36,543 nucleotides of DNA from a virus. The translations under genes and the position numbers were made by a program. The stretch spans positions 1 through 36,543 of IMG/VR virus record IMGVR_UViG_3300020411_002649; one strand, written 5' to 3'. Positions 83 to 5,071 of this stretch are shown in pieces; position 1 is the stretch's first letter; each line of letters begins with the position of its first letter. The notes beneath the pieces were generated by a model. That model was not told the origin of the DNA, did not search any database, and was given only the letters and a program-made list of their open reading frames with translations.

Positions 83-1966
83 TTAGTCTTCCTCATTTCT
101 GACAGCACCAGTATATTCAACAGAATATATCTTTGCTGTAGCACCAGAGGTCACCCCTTGTAAGGTTTCACCCTCTGACCACAGATAATTAGGATCATTT
201 GAAACAATATCCTTAATGGTTATTGTGTGTAAACTCTCATTGGTACCTATTATAGGACCAGATGTAACTGATGTAGTAGTTGCAGTTAACCCAGTTGTAT
301 TACCTTGGACACCTTCATCAACTTGGAAGGTTGGTGCAGGGTTAATATACTCAACAATAAGTGTTGCTGTCGAGGTATGAGTATCACCATCACCTAAAGC
401 ACCAGCAGCAGTGATAGTAGCAACTAAAGAATTTGGACTTCCATCATATATTTGGTCACCAACTTGGAATAGAGTAGTGTTTTGTCCACCAAGTGTTTCC
501 TCTATACCATATTTAGACGAGGCTATACCACCATCTAAACAAATTTGGTTTTCAAACTCAGTACCAGTATTAACTAAATCGATAATACCATCACCAAGAC
601 CATCTAATTCATCATCATCTTCAAACTTTCTGTTGAGGATTAAACTTAATGGATCTGTAAAGGTAACAATATTATCTCCTTCAGATTCTATCAAAACGTG
701 TGGCTCTATACCTGTGCCTGATGCACCAGCAGATCCAGCAACGAATGCAATAATCTTAGACTTCTCATTAGATCTACCACCATCGATGAATGCTAATTCA
801 TCAACTTCAAAGGTTAGATATAATGCTTTTTGTACAGGATCCCAATCATATACTATAGCAACTCGGTTATTTGAGGATTCAATTACCCTTCTAACCTTGT
901 CAGTAACTTGGAAATCATATGCTGTTAGTCCTGTATTAGGATCATCTTGTAAAGTATCGAGTGTGACTTTCTGGTCAAAACGGAAGTTAACACCTCTATC
1001 ACAACCAGTGAAAGCATCGAATAAAGCACCATCAACACCAGCAGCAGTTTTACCTGTATACCTTACAATCTCCCTACCTAACAGAATCTTACCTGAACCT
1101 GGATAGGGATCAGTTGTCTGTACGTATATTGTACTAGTACTAGAATTAACATTACTAGTTAATCCAGTTATATTATAGACAACTGAGTTTAGAGACTGTC
1201 TGTTTCTTGCTTCACGAATCAGGTCAGTATCTCTAGTAAAGATAACCTCAGGAGGTGTAGTATATCCACCACCACCTGTAAGTAGATCAATATTTGTAAT
1301 CTTACCAAGGTTAATAAATGCTTCAGCAGTAGCACCAGATCCACCACCTTTGATTAACTGTATAAGTGGAGGAGTCTCAAAGAATTCACCTTGATTAGTT
1401 AATGTAATAGAAGAAACTTCACCAAACTGATTGACATTAGCAACACCAGTTGCACCTTGGCCACCACCACCGCTAATGATGATATTTACGTCTTCCTCTG
1501 TATAGTTTCTACCCTGTTGCTCAATAGCAAGACCTGTAATCAAACCTGTGACAGGTACCAACTCAGATCCAGATCCACCACCACCTACAATATTAGCAAC
1601 AGCATCAAAGTAACCATCACCAGGCACATTCATTTGAATGAAATCTATACCACCATCATTCTTTAAGAATACGGTACCAGTTGCAGATCCGTCAGAACTC
1701 TCATCCTGTATCTGCAATCGTAATGGGTTATATCCTTCACCAGGATCTATAACCTCCACAGCAGTTATAACACCACCATCTCCTTCGACTACTGCTCTTA
1801 AAACAGCGTCTCTGATGGGTGTGCCACAATTACCAATTCTCAATCTTGGTGGATCAGCAGGATCATATCCTTCACCACCGTTAATAACATAAACATCCCT
1901 CACCCCAAAAGTACTATTGAAAATTGGGAAGATTTCGGCACCGCTACCTGGGACTGTTCTTGTCAT
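83..1966 (-). CDS. Virion structural protein with GGGGSGATA/GYTxxP beta repeats (627 aa)
   Basis: The protein is probably a secreted-free virion fibre or baseplate decoration; I do not recognise a precise function. Residues about 27-245 hold roughly six short glycine-rich repeats, each ending in a GxGY..PP or GGGGSGAT(A) signature; the clearest is GGGGYTTPPEVIF. These are the same repeats that recur in the 9,581-residue neighbour. Residues about 280-330 contain the module SGKILLGREIVRYTGKT followed by FTGCDRGVNF, which also has counterparts in the giant protein. The C-terminal third (about 480-627) has short beta-rich repeats such as SEGETLQGVTSGATAKI. No signal peptide, membrane segment or enzyme motif is visible. 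The ATG is one base after the upstream stop codon, with GGTGG just before it, suggesting translational coupling. The confidence is high for a real structural gene and low for any specific role. Confidence 0.85.
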   Translation of the reverse strand: MTRTVPGSGAEIFPIFNSTFGVRDVYVINGGEGYDPADPPRLRIGNCGTPIRDAVLRAVVEGDGGVITAVEVIDPGEGYNPLRLQIQDESSDGSATGTVFLKNDGGIDFIQMNVPGDGYFDAVANIVGGGGSGSELVPVTGLITGLAIEQQGRNYTEEDVNIIISGGGGQGATGVANVNQFGEVSSITLTNQGEFFETPPLIQLIKGGGSGATAEAFINLGKITNIDLLTGGGGYTTPPEVIFTRDTDLIREARNRQSLNSVVYNITGLTSNVNSSTSTIYVQTTDPYPGSGKILLGREIVRYTGKTAAGVDGALFDAFTGCDRGVNFRFDQKVTLDTLQDDPNTGLTAYDFQVTDKVRRVIESSNNRVAIVYDWDPVQKALYLTFEVDELAFIDGGRSNEKSKIIAFVAGSAGASGTGIEPHVLIESEGDNIVTFTDPLSLILNRKFEDDDELDGLGDGIIDLVNTGTEFENQICLDGGIASSKYGIEETLGGQNTTLFQVGDQIYDGSPNSLVATITAAGALGDGDTHTSTATLIVEYINPAPTFQVDEGVQGNTTGLTATTTSVTSGPIIGTNESLHTITIKDIVSNDPNYLWSEGETLQGVTSGATAKIYSVEYTGAVRNEED

Positions 1967-1967
1967 A

Positions 1968-3449
1968 TTAGACCACCGTTAAATTTCCTACCATTGCTGC
2001 GTGTGCAGTGCACTGGTAAACATATGTTGTGCCAGGAGAAAGATCCATTGGCACTGTCCAGAATTGGACTCCTTCTTGATTACCTGAAACTCCTTCGGTA
2101 ACAGCAGTACCACCTGATGTTTGCCTTAGAGCGAGAGGATGTCCTGAACCTGTTGTATTATTAAGTCTGTATGTAAATCCTCTATAGACATATATTGTTG
2201 GATTGTCTGATGAAGAATCAACACCACCACCTGCTACTCTATAAACACTACTATTAGGAGCAGTGAAATTAAATCCTATTGTGGGTGATGTTGTAGGATC
2301 CCAACTAGTACCATTGAAAATGATATTATCATTTGTAGTAGCAGCTCCACTAAGATATAGATCAGCATTAACTGTCAACGTGTTAGTGGAGGCAGCAGTA
2401 GTAATTCCATTACCACCTGCAATATCCAATGTTGAGGTTGCTAGTTGTGCAGTTGTAGTGCCACTGTCTCCAATAATAGTTTTGTATGTCTCTTGACTTA
2501 CATTGGGAGAATCATTTGTAATCGTAAGATTATCTCCACTAACAGCAGTACTAATACCAGTCCCACCAATGAGGTTAATAGTAGCAGTTGTACTACCTGC
2601 GGTTTTTGATCCTGAGTCACTTCCAATTACACCATAAGCATTCTGGTTGGCATCTCCAAGAGAACCAGTCATATTGATTGTGACTGTATCTCCTGTGATT
2701 GCGGTAGCAATATTCGTGCCACCAACTATATTTAATGTATCTGTTGCAGCAGACGCTGTTGTTGTACCAGTATCACCAGCAACAGTCTCAAATAAGTTTT
2801 GAGTAGTGCCTCCACCACCTCCACTAGCTGAGTCATCATTAGCAGGTTCCCACTTACTTGTAGCAGAATTCCATTTAATAACCTGACCACCCGCAGGACC
2901 ACCTCCAACGGTCATATCTACATCAAATAGATCACCAAGAGTGTGATCCTCACCTATAATCTTCTTCCAACCACTATTAGTAGCAACCCTTGCAACATTA
3001 TCACCACTTACCAAAGCAAACATACCCTGATGTGTTGAAGAATCAGGTAAATCTCCTGTAGATGGGAAATAATTACTATACTTTAACTTACCATCAGCAC
3101 CATCGATGTATGTAAGAGACGATCCTGTATTACCACCCCATAATTTAATGTCTCCAGTGCCATTAGGTTTGATAACTATATCACCATTAGCAGATGATAT
3201 AATTTGATGACCATTGACATCTACATTCCCAGAGAACGAATCAAAATCTCCTTCAGCGAACTGTGCACCATTCCATTTTAGAATTTGTCCAGTTGAGGGA
3301 GTGCCAACATTGACTTGTAGGTTGGTATCATTACCAAGATTGGTGTATATCTCATCAATGACGCTATTTAATTTGATAGCACCATCTCTAAGACTGTCAC
3401 CAGTCCCATCGTTTGCCGATGATCCAATATTAAGGGTTTGCTTTGCCAT
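1968..3449 (-). CDS. Fibre-like structural protein with C-terminal cupredoxin domain (493 aa)
   Basis: The N-terminus, with NIGSSANDGTGDSLRDGA and a following helix ending DEIYTNLG, is the type found at the start of many phage fibre proteins. The middle (about 215-350) has three repeats of about 45 residues built on D(S/T)G(T/S)(T/K)TA..AT.T(L/I)(N/D)I.GG. The last 100 residues (about 393-493) look like a cupredoxin. H437 (in SGHPLAL), C480, H483 and M486 (in YQCTAHAAMVG) occupy the positions of the type-1 copper ligands, and the C-x2-H-x2-M spacing equals that of amicyanin (C92, H95, M98). Copper binding is inferred and not shown. The ATG lies 23 bases after the preceding stop, without a strong ribosome site. 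A fibre whose tip carries a stable beta-sandwich is the simplest reading; redox activity is a speculative alternative. Confidence 0.85.
   Translation of the reverse strand: MAKQTLNIGSSANDGTGDSLRDGAIKLNSVIDEIYTNLGNDTNLQVNVGTPSTGQILKWNGAQFAEGDFDSFSGNVDVNGHQIISSANGDIVIKPNGTGDIKLWGGNTGSSLTYIDGADGKLKYSNYFPSTGDLPDSSTHQGMFALVSGDNVARVATNSGWKKIIGEDHTLGDLFDVDMTVGGGPAGGQVIKWNSATSKWEPANDDSASGGGGGTTQNLFETVAGDTGTTTASAATDTLNIVGGTNIATAITGDTVTINMTGSLGDANQNAYGVIGSDSGSKTAGSTTATINLIGGTGISTAVSGDNLTITNDSPNVSQETYKTIIGDSGTTTAQLATSTLDIAGGNGITTAASTNTLTVNADLYLSGAATTNDNIIFNGTSWDPTTSPTIGFNFTAPNSSVYRVAGGGVDSSSDNPTIYVYRGFTYRLNNTTGSGHPLALRQTSGGTAVTEGVSGNQEGVQFWTVPMDLSPGTTYVYQCTAHAAMVGNLTVV
1989..2273 (-). other. Cupredoxin-like domain of the 493-aa protein
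   Basis: The segment covers about residues 393-488. Key residues visible are H437, C480, H483 and M486, preceded by PGTTYVYQC, a typical last-strand approach in blue copper proteins. The distance from the first histidine to the cysteine is 43 residues; in amicyanin it is 39. The four-ligand set is complete, unlike the degenerate cupredoxin folds used purely as scaffolds. The fold assignment comes from motif recognition only. Confidence 0.65.
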
Positions 3450-3472: not shown

Positions 3473-5071
3473 TTAGGTGCCATCATAAGTTTGTAATGTG
3501 GAATCAAGAGTAGATGAGGTACTATCGAATCTATTTGCGGTGCTACCACTTCCACCACCGCCAAGTACTGTCAGTGTTGCTGCTTGAGAATCTAATGGTG
3601 AGTTAGATGCTGTTGTACCACCAATTGGACCGATAATTCTACAACGATACTTGTATCCAGTCATATATGGCAGTGCAGTCACTGCTAATGTATTAGTTGT
3701 TGCTCCAGTTACAGCAGAAAATGCAAATCCACCGTCAGTAGATTTGTACCATTGGAATGAAACAGGTCCGTCTTCAGGAGAAACAAGTTTCTGGACTGAG
3801 AATGTAGCAGTCTGACCAGCATTAACGGAAACACTAGCTGGTTGTAGTGTAAATGATAGTATTGGTACTACTCCTCCATCACCACCACCTGGATCTCCAC
3901 CTCCACCTTGCTGTACTGGTTCTACGGTGAACGTGGTGTCAATAGTTTCTCTGGTTGTTAGTCCAATAATGTATGGGAATTTAGTATTATCTACGTTATT
4001 CTCATCAACAGTAAGGAAATAAGCATAGGTACCATCCTGATATTCAGGTGTGATAGCAAATCTACCATTATGACTGTCTAAATCTCCAGTACCTTCAATG
4101 TATTCATAGTCCTCCATCAACGTACCAGCAGGAGGATTGTCAGTTGTAGACCCATAATCAGGTCTTCCAGCTACTTCACTGTCTCTTACAGCATATGAAG
4201 TCCTCATTGTCCTAGTTCCACTCAAATTATCGAATGGTGTGGAGTATCCATAAGGTCCATAGATGGGAAATCCATCAAATGCTATACCAATTATCTTAGA
4301 ATGACCGTCAGGATGACGAATATTGTCTCCATTAAACTGAGTTGCACCATAATAATCATTATATGATGCAATTGATCCACCAGATTTCCAACAATCTAAG
4401 AAATGAGGGTCATGATAGTGGTATTGACCACCTTGTTCTGGGTGACCACCACAAGAATCCTCTCCAGAATTAACAAAAGGTAGATCTCCAGCAGCAACCC
4501 AACTGAATCCAGAGGGAGGATTGAGTCCAGCACCAGCAGAAGGGTTAAAAATTGCCACTCCATTACCAGCAATCCCTATGTTCCCCAGGGGCGTGGAAAC
4601 TCTTCCATTACGTTGGTCATAATACTCGTAAGTACCACTCACAGGAGTAGTTGCTTGCTCTTCTACAATAAAATCTAAGGTGGTATCACTGGATAACCAG
4701 CACTCACCGTCAATAGAAGTGAATGTCGTGCTCTTAAATACGAATTTTTGCTTTAATCCATCACTGAAAACAACCATTATATTATCATTTTCTGCAATAC
4801 TAGGATTACCACCAGTGAAAAGTGTTAAATCATTTACTGATATAGTAACTCTTCTAACAAATCCGTCATGCGTATATCCATTACTATCAAATGTGCGAGC
4901 AATTCCAAATGTTCCTCCACGGTATAAGAAGTCATGATCGAAGTCCTGTTCTACTACAGTATTAGGGTTGTTATCATTTGGGAACGTACCAAAACTTACA
5001 GGTGCTGGGAGTCCATCGGACTCCACCGTTATTACCTTGGTTGCCTGATTGTATGATGCTGTGGCTGCCAT
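3473..5071 (-). CDS. YHYH-domain and Ig-like virion protein (532 aa)
   Basis: Residues about 190-375 match the YHYH domain family. The name-giving YHYH is at 217-220, inside a Cys/His-rich loop (CGGHPEQGGQYHYHDPHFLDC without its last residues is readable from 205), followed by IAFDGFPIYGPYGY near 265-280 and SHNGRFAITPEY with YAYFLTVDEN further on. The domain function is unknown; the clustered His, Cys and Asp suggest a metal site, which is an inference. Residues about 405-510 form an Ig-like domain with the pattern LQPASVSVNAGQTATFSV, FQWYKSTDGG and YKYRCRI. The extreme C-terminus is low-complexity Ser/Thr. An incomplete relative of the YHYH domain sits inside the giant upstream gene, and both proteins end in related Ig domains. 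The ATG is preceded by AAGGAT and follows the giant gene's stop by eight bases. Confidence 0.88.
   Translation of the reverse strand: MAATASYNQATKVITVESDGLPAPVSFGTFPNDNNPNTVVEQDFDHDFLYRGGTFGIARTFDSNGYTHDGFVRRVTISVNDLTLFTGGNPSIAENDNIMVVFSDGLKQKFVFKSTTFTSIDGECWLSSDTTLDFIVEEQATTPVSGTYEYYDQRNGRVSTPLGNIGIAGNGVAIFNPSAGAGLNPPSGFSWVAAGDLPFVNSGEDSCGGHPEQGGQYHYHDPHFLDCWKSGGSIASYNDYYGATQFNGDNIRHPDGHSKIIGIAFDGFPIYGPYGYSTPFDNLSGTRTMRTSYAVRDSEVAGRPDYGSTTDNPPAGTLMEDYEYIEGTGDLDSHNGRFAITPEYQDGTYAYFLTVDENNVDNTKFPYIIGLTTRETIDTTFTVEPVQQGGGGDPGGGDGGVVPILSFTLQPASVSVNAGQTATFSVQKLVSPEDGPVSFQWYKSTDGGFAFSAVTGATTNTLAVTALPYMTGYKYRCRIIGPIGGTTASNSPLDSQAATLTVLGGGGSGSTANRFDSTSSTLDSTLQTYDGT
3950..4510 (-). other. YHYH domain, complete copy
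   Basis: The domain covers roughly residues 188-374 of the 532-residue protein. The YHYH tetrapeptide is encoded at 4412-4423. The motifs IAFDGFPIYGPYGY, RTMRTSYAVRD, DYEYIEGTGDLDSHNGRF and KFPYIIGLTT align by eye with the copy in the giant protein, which lacks the YHYH tetrapeptide itself. I recall YHYH domains from bacterial and marine phage proteins; no activity is established that I can name. Confidence 0.75.

Follow-up and report, generated by a model that had tools for sequence, protein, structure and literature searches.

The cupredoxins known so far are either free electron carriers or domains of enzymes, and the question raised by this locus is whether such a domain, with an intact set of type-1 copper ligands, is part of a phage tail. 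A sequence-only reading of the window (the whole stretch of DNA that was analysed, 36,543 nucleotides, which is a single IMG/VR virus record) had placed a complete type-1 copper site, in the interval 1989-2273, at the tip of a phage fibre-like protein and had regarded such a centre in a virion as surprising. The features that bear on this question are the following.

83..1966, minus strand: baseplate-wedge-like neighbour of 627 aa (PHROG 22827, E 1.6e-279; PHROG 708, E 4.1e-194)
1968..3449, minus strand: predicted gp9-type baseplate wedge/tail-fibre connector of 493 aa (Pfam T4_gp9_10_N, PHROG 677)
1971..2273, minus strand: predicted C-terminal cupredoxin domain, residues 393-493 (AF2 pLDDT 96.2, Foldseek/VIA, amicyanin profile match)
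1992..1994, minus strand: M486, putative axial Met ligand (this and the next three lines from the ORF translation, a 28-row alignment and the amicyanin register)
2001..2003, minus strand: H483, putative second His ligand
2010..2012, minus strand: C480, putative Cys ligand and the sole Cys in the 493 residues
2139..2141, minus strand: H437, putative first His ligand, with Pro next to it
2364..2711, minus strand: shaft-like stretch with three two-strand elements, residues 247-260, 299-312 and 349-362 (secondary structure of the full-length model, of low confidence there)
3237..3443, minus strand: T4 gp9/gp10-like N-terminal domain, residues 3-71 (Pfam PF07880)
3473..5071, minus strand: neighbouring virion protein of 532 aa with a YHYH domain (PF14240, E 5.8e-37; PHROG 25852)
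5080-33825, minus strand: giant structural protein of 9581 aa, a single ORF that fills most of the record

Judged by its profile matches, the 493-aa protein comes from a T4-like marine cyanophage and is a baseplate wedge/tail-fibre connector of the gp9 type rather than a fibre. T4_gp9_10_N (PF07880) matches residues 3-71 with an E-value of 7.3e-10, and PHROG 677, 'baseplate wedge tail fiber protein connector', matches the protein with an E-value of 7.3e-136. Upstream of the gene lie the genes for the 532-aa YHYH protein, the 9581-aa giant protein, gp6 and gp25. The gene order is the same in cyanophage P-TIM40, the closest named phage to the 493-aa protein, with the giant protein followed by genes of 526, 491 and 614 aa and then gp8. 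The PHROG match, the gp9/gp10-type N-terminus, the neighbours and the order in P-TIM40 together indicate that the locus is part of the baseplate region in a T4-like cyanophage from the sea and that the protein is a gp9-type connector. That the protein belongs to the virion thus agrees with the sequence-only reading, whereas its description as fibre-like gives way to that of a connector, on the Pfam and PHROG assignments and the N-terminal matches in relatives.

The region from about residue 5532 to residue 8300 of the giant protein contains 24 copies of C-x2-D-x5-7-H-x-YPR, which may be another metal-linked repeat, and the whole protein has 64 Cys and 177 His, which is apparently unusual for a virion protein. 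A YHYH-like stretch, judged by eye, is present as well; YHYH domains are described as predicted zinc hydrolases in one report (PMC7824862).

We predict with high confidence that the last 101 residues form a genuine cupredoxin domain, the fold that the sequence-only reading had proposed. The model of this domain (AlphaFold2, 28 family members) reached a pLDDT of 96.2 and a pTM of 0.86, and all 23 PDB chains matched by Foldseek at E<=0.001 are blue-copper proteins, among them the N-terminal domain of Hyphomicrobium nitrite reductase (HdNIR), amicyanin, rusticyanin and plastocyanin (3cvd). The model and these matches correspond to the Greek-key beta sandwich of about 100 residues that characterizes the cupredoxin superfamily. 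VIA-align to the N-terminal cupredoxin domain of HdNIR (2dv6) gave Z 9.5 over 88 aligned residues (rmsd 2.3, 26% identity); since Z-scores of 7 to 8 may be background, weight was placed on the unanimous PDB list. The profile of the 28-member family matched amicyanin with E-values of 2.6e-4 (mutant 1sf3) and 0.0016 (1aac), with the ligands H/C/H/M in register with those of amicyanin, which we take to be residues 53, 92, 95 and 98. The Pfam profile Copper-bind (PF00127) has a cut-off of 21.2 bits, which was missed by both the window protein (13.3 bits) and the isolated domain (16.2 bits); it matched 28/28 family members at E<=1, the best with an E-value of 4.8e-4.

The full-length model of the 493-aa protein, with a mean pLDDT of 66 and a pTM of 0.35, was trusted just for the C-terminal domain and residues about 130-200. 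The stretch between residue ~200 and the C-terminal domain is plausibly shaft-like, with its three two-strand elements. The domain is terminal, as had been proposed, and its placement at a tip is plausible, the shaft region being of low confidence in the model. The interval proposed for it holds residues 393-487, and the domain continues to residue 493, the last codon.

Translation of the ORF places H437, C480, H483 and M486 exactly where the sequence-only reading had them, and the profile alignment sets the four on H/C/H/M of amicyanin, in agreement with the amicyanin-type C-x2-H-x2-M spacing that it had noted. The domain thus has the His, Cys, His and Met of a type-1 site with a Cys-x2-4-His-x2-4-Met loop. 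The pattern H-x25-60-C-x2-4-H-x2-4-M has a single match in the window (six-frame open stretches of at least 60 aa, 18,508 residues). It also arose 144 times when the 101 residues of the domain were shuffled 200,000 times, and the motif on its own is therefore suggestive; support must come from fold and family. The fold prediction, the amicyanin register and the family-wide retention of the ligands are far stronger evidence than the motif.

In the family alignment the four ligands are invariant in 28/28 rows, as is a Pro after the first His. Seed peptides that contain the ligands make a retention count circular and were left out of it; the seeds used were 44 to 62 residues long and ended before the first His. 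These ligand-blind scans took at most the best 80 matches per scan and are biased towards closer relatives. In the first scan (best 80), 78 half-domains were followed by all four ligands and the other two were cut by contig ends. Three more distant queries yielded 110 half-domains, 105 of them with four ligands, one incomplete and four without; in one of these scans 26/34 loci had no half-domain (collagen-like or partial matches), and in another 1/21 was dropped. Pooling gave 130 distinct domains, of which three incomplete ones were excluded, and all four ligands were found in 123 of the 127 complete domains, or in 16/20 after clustering at 70%.

The four domains without the full set lack three or four ligands at once, and replacement of a single ligand was seen in none of the 127. 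No ligands are left in two of them (L221 and L233); in L223 the His, Cys and His are absent with one Met alignable, and in L329 the first His is retained and the Cys, His and Met are gone. Fold residues, among them Pro25, the RG-motif Gly and those of the closing strand, are mostly retained in all four. The losses fall on three branches of a tree, which needs three changes, the tree being built from few columns, with the ligand columns included and with long branches at exactly the ligand-less rows. Two of the loci (L221:1895-2836 and L223:1771-2709) encode gp9 proteins of 313-314 aa, with a terminal domain that has the fold residues without the copper ligands. By their sequences these are natural ligand-less controls, and their existence indicates that copper is dispensable to the gp9 slot.

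In the named phages, 13/13 gp9 proteins carry the domain with four ligands (12 found via the N-terminus, and P-TIM40 as the closest relative). Six of the seven places in P-SSM2 and P-HM2 could be aligned, all six with four ligands (the seventh is L351). The loop occurs as C-x2-H-x2-M, C-x4-H-x2-M or C-x2-H-x3-M, so that the ligands are kept despite differing loop length. A scan that included the ligands gave 113 profile matches, five of which did not have four ligands: two lie at contig ends (L089, L060), one locus was split in two (L066) and one match is partial (L062). The partial match is the second in its protein (residues 295-393 of the first open frame), with Thr for the first His and no aligned C-H-M. 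A weak extra stretch in P-HM2 (L348, 10 bits), adjoining a scored copy, has no C-H-M either.

Free replacement of the ligands in relatives, which the sequence-only reading had named as evidence against the site, is not what we found; the set is retained or lost jointly. This concerted retention and loss suggests joint selection. A bound metal would be expected to keep His, Cys, His and Met together while letting the loop vary in length, and this is the pattern seen. The Met is retained as strictly as the other three ligands and a zinc site would not need it, which argues for copper over zinc.

The site is no peculiarity of this phage and is widespread among marine cyanomyoviruses. The domain was found by tblastn (E<=1e-3) in 318 of 50,697 phage records, named Synechococcus, Cyanophage, Prochlorococcus or Marine virus, and most of the 60 matches listed carry the annotation baseplate wedge tail fiber connector. 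In the T7-like cyanopodovirus P-GSP1 (L112, 3944-5944) it occupies residues 20-119 of a 666-aa hypothetical protein, and further tail or structural proteins with copies were found in P-SSM2, S-SCSM1, P-HM1 and S-CAM4, from which it appears that the domain is mobile, both from protein to protein and across virion morphotypes. In the literature searched, phage tails are nowhere described as containing a cupredoxin or a type-1 copper site; for some of the proteins, UniProt/InterPro may already show the superfamily. The domains noted in such phages, in two reports, are YHYH and lectin-like domains (PMC7824862, PMC7029224).

A scan of cellular genome contigs, with patterns that included a ligand-bearing peptide and may therefore have missed other kinds of cellular cupredoxin, returned three loci. 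One is a contig of 188,235 bases in the Nonlabens xiamenensis assembly (L108, NZ_RMVE01000006.1), which is 99.06% identical to P-TIM40 over 8303 bases and is apparently a phage contaminant in a bacterial reference genome. The other two (L107, L109) are Euryarchaeota MAG contigs bearing the same cupredoxin domain, probably misbinned phage contigs.

A role in light-dependent adsorption is unsupported by the presence or absence of the domain in P-HM2 (3 copies), P-SSM2 (4), P-SSP7 (0) and S-PM2 (0). Adsorption of S-PM2 is light-dependent with no copy and P-SSM2 adsorbs in the dark with four, which argues against a link. According to one report, P-HM2 fails to adsorb in darkness and P-SSP7 is able to infect without light (PMC7112961), and light-dependent adsorption is described for several cyanomyoviruses in another (PMC2984593).

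The reading that we favour, and consider fairly probable, is that the cupredoxin domain with its intact type-1 ligands forms the docking head of the connector and likely holds one copper per chain. In T4, gp9 connects the baseplate with the long tail fibre, and this role is the ground for reading the domain as a docking head. The gp9/gp10-type N-terminus would anchor the shaft to the baseplate and the cupredoxin domain would form the globular end of the shaft. By analogy with T4 gp9, the main task of this end would be docking, either to the long tail fibre or to a surface ligand. One copper per chain would fix the C-x2-H-x2-M loop in place and, through it, the end of the domain that is exposed. 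We infer that the metal is copper, that virions contain it, that the domain docks and that the metal stabilizes the loop; redox use of the site is possible. The existence of ligand-less gp9 proteins suggests that copper benefits most lineages but is not structurally required.

It is rather unlikely, in our judgement, that the docking module merely reuses the cupredoxin fold, with a site that is empty or zinc-bound in the virion and with no copper biology. The cytoplasm, in which virions are assembled, has little free copper, the ligand-less gp9 domains retain the fold residues and the second-sphere Asn is replaced by Pro, all of which would fit such a site. However, an empty site should drift, whereas all four ligands, including the Met, are present in 123/127 distinct domains and are lost jointly.

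A more active use of copper, as a redox or copper-responsive element of the baseplate or as copper offered to an uptake receptor of the host in the way suggested for iron on the fibres of T4 and of marine phages, appears improbable. The type-1 set is complete including the axial Met, the domain is present in other tail proteins too, and iron on phage fibres sets a precedent, with T4 gp37 holding iron on HxH motifs and the Trojan Horse hypothesis set out in one report (PMC11705849). Against this, no partner enzyme or electron donor is known, the presence of the domain does not track light-dependent adsorption, and the copper content per virion would be small. Slightly less probable again is the specific proposal that blue-copper centres sit at the fibre/baseplate junction of the virion, where redox state or copper would couple the chemistry of the host surface to attachment or tail firing.

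That the domain is a petE plastocyanin fused to gp9 and still a photosynthetic carrier is very improbable. Plastocyanin has a longer His-to-Met gap than the C-x2-H-x2-M spacing found here. Cyanophages do carry petE, as a separate plastocyanin gene according to one report (PMC3037559), but the domain sits in structural proteins and its profile matches amicyanin (2.6e-4) better than plastocyanin (0.012), leaving a plastocyanin origin unsupported. A chance motif in an unrelated beta domain, for which only the single-sequence Pfam score below the cut-off speaks, is scarcely credible, being refuted by the model with pLDDT 96, the 23/23 PDB matches, the amicyanin register and the ligand retention (123/127).

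If cupredoxins with jointly selected ligands are a fixed part of the tails of abundant ocean viruses, copper would join the metals that virions display, and active virion copper, if true, would be the copper counterpart of the iron 'Trojan horse' idea. Whether cyanophage particles contain type-1 copper is directly testable. S-RIM8 and S-CAM8 carry the domain and S-PM2 has no match, and the records list Synechococcus WH7803 as host for all three, so that these phages offer natural controls on one host.

Amicyanin of Paracoccus denitrificans, a free periplasmic electron carrier of methylamine dehydrogenase, shares with the phage domain the cupredoxin fold, the ligands in register, the C-x2-H-x2-M spacing and a Thr after the Cys. 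By sequence the phage domain belongs to the cupredoxin fold and has a type-1 ligand set; it is distinguished from amicyanin by the residue after the first His, Asn in amicyanin and Pro in 28/28 phage domains, indicating that the inner neighbourhood of the site differs. Amicyanin has no phage context, whereas the domain here belongs to a virion protein and lacks the features specific to amicyanin. The best structural match, the N-terminal domain of Hyphomicrobium denitrificans nitrite reductase (2dv6), is an enzyme domain with 26% identity. The likeness to T4 gp9 and PHROG 677 lies in the N-terminal domain and the genome context: in the coliphage T4-type records listed, matches are confined to the first 39-79 residues of the phage protein, the N-terminal 268 aa align (tblastn) over residues 1-79 or fewer, and the cupredoxin domain has no match at E<=10 in these records. 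With the iron-holding HxH fibres of T4 gp37 (PMC11705849) the connector would share a metal held by a phage adhesion protein, the iron there being bound on motifs along the fibre and the putative copper here in a folded domain.
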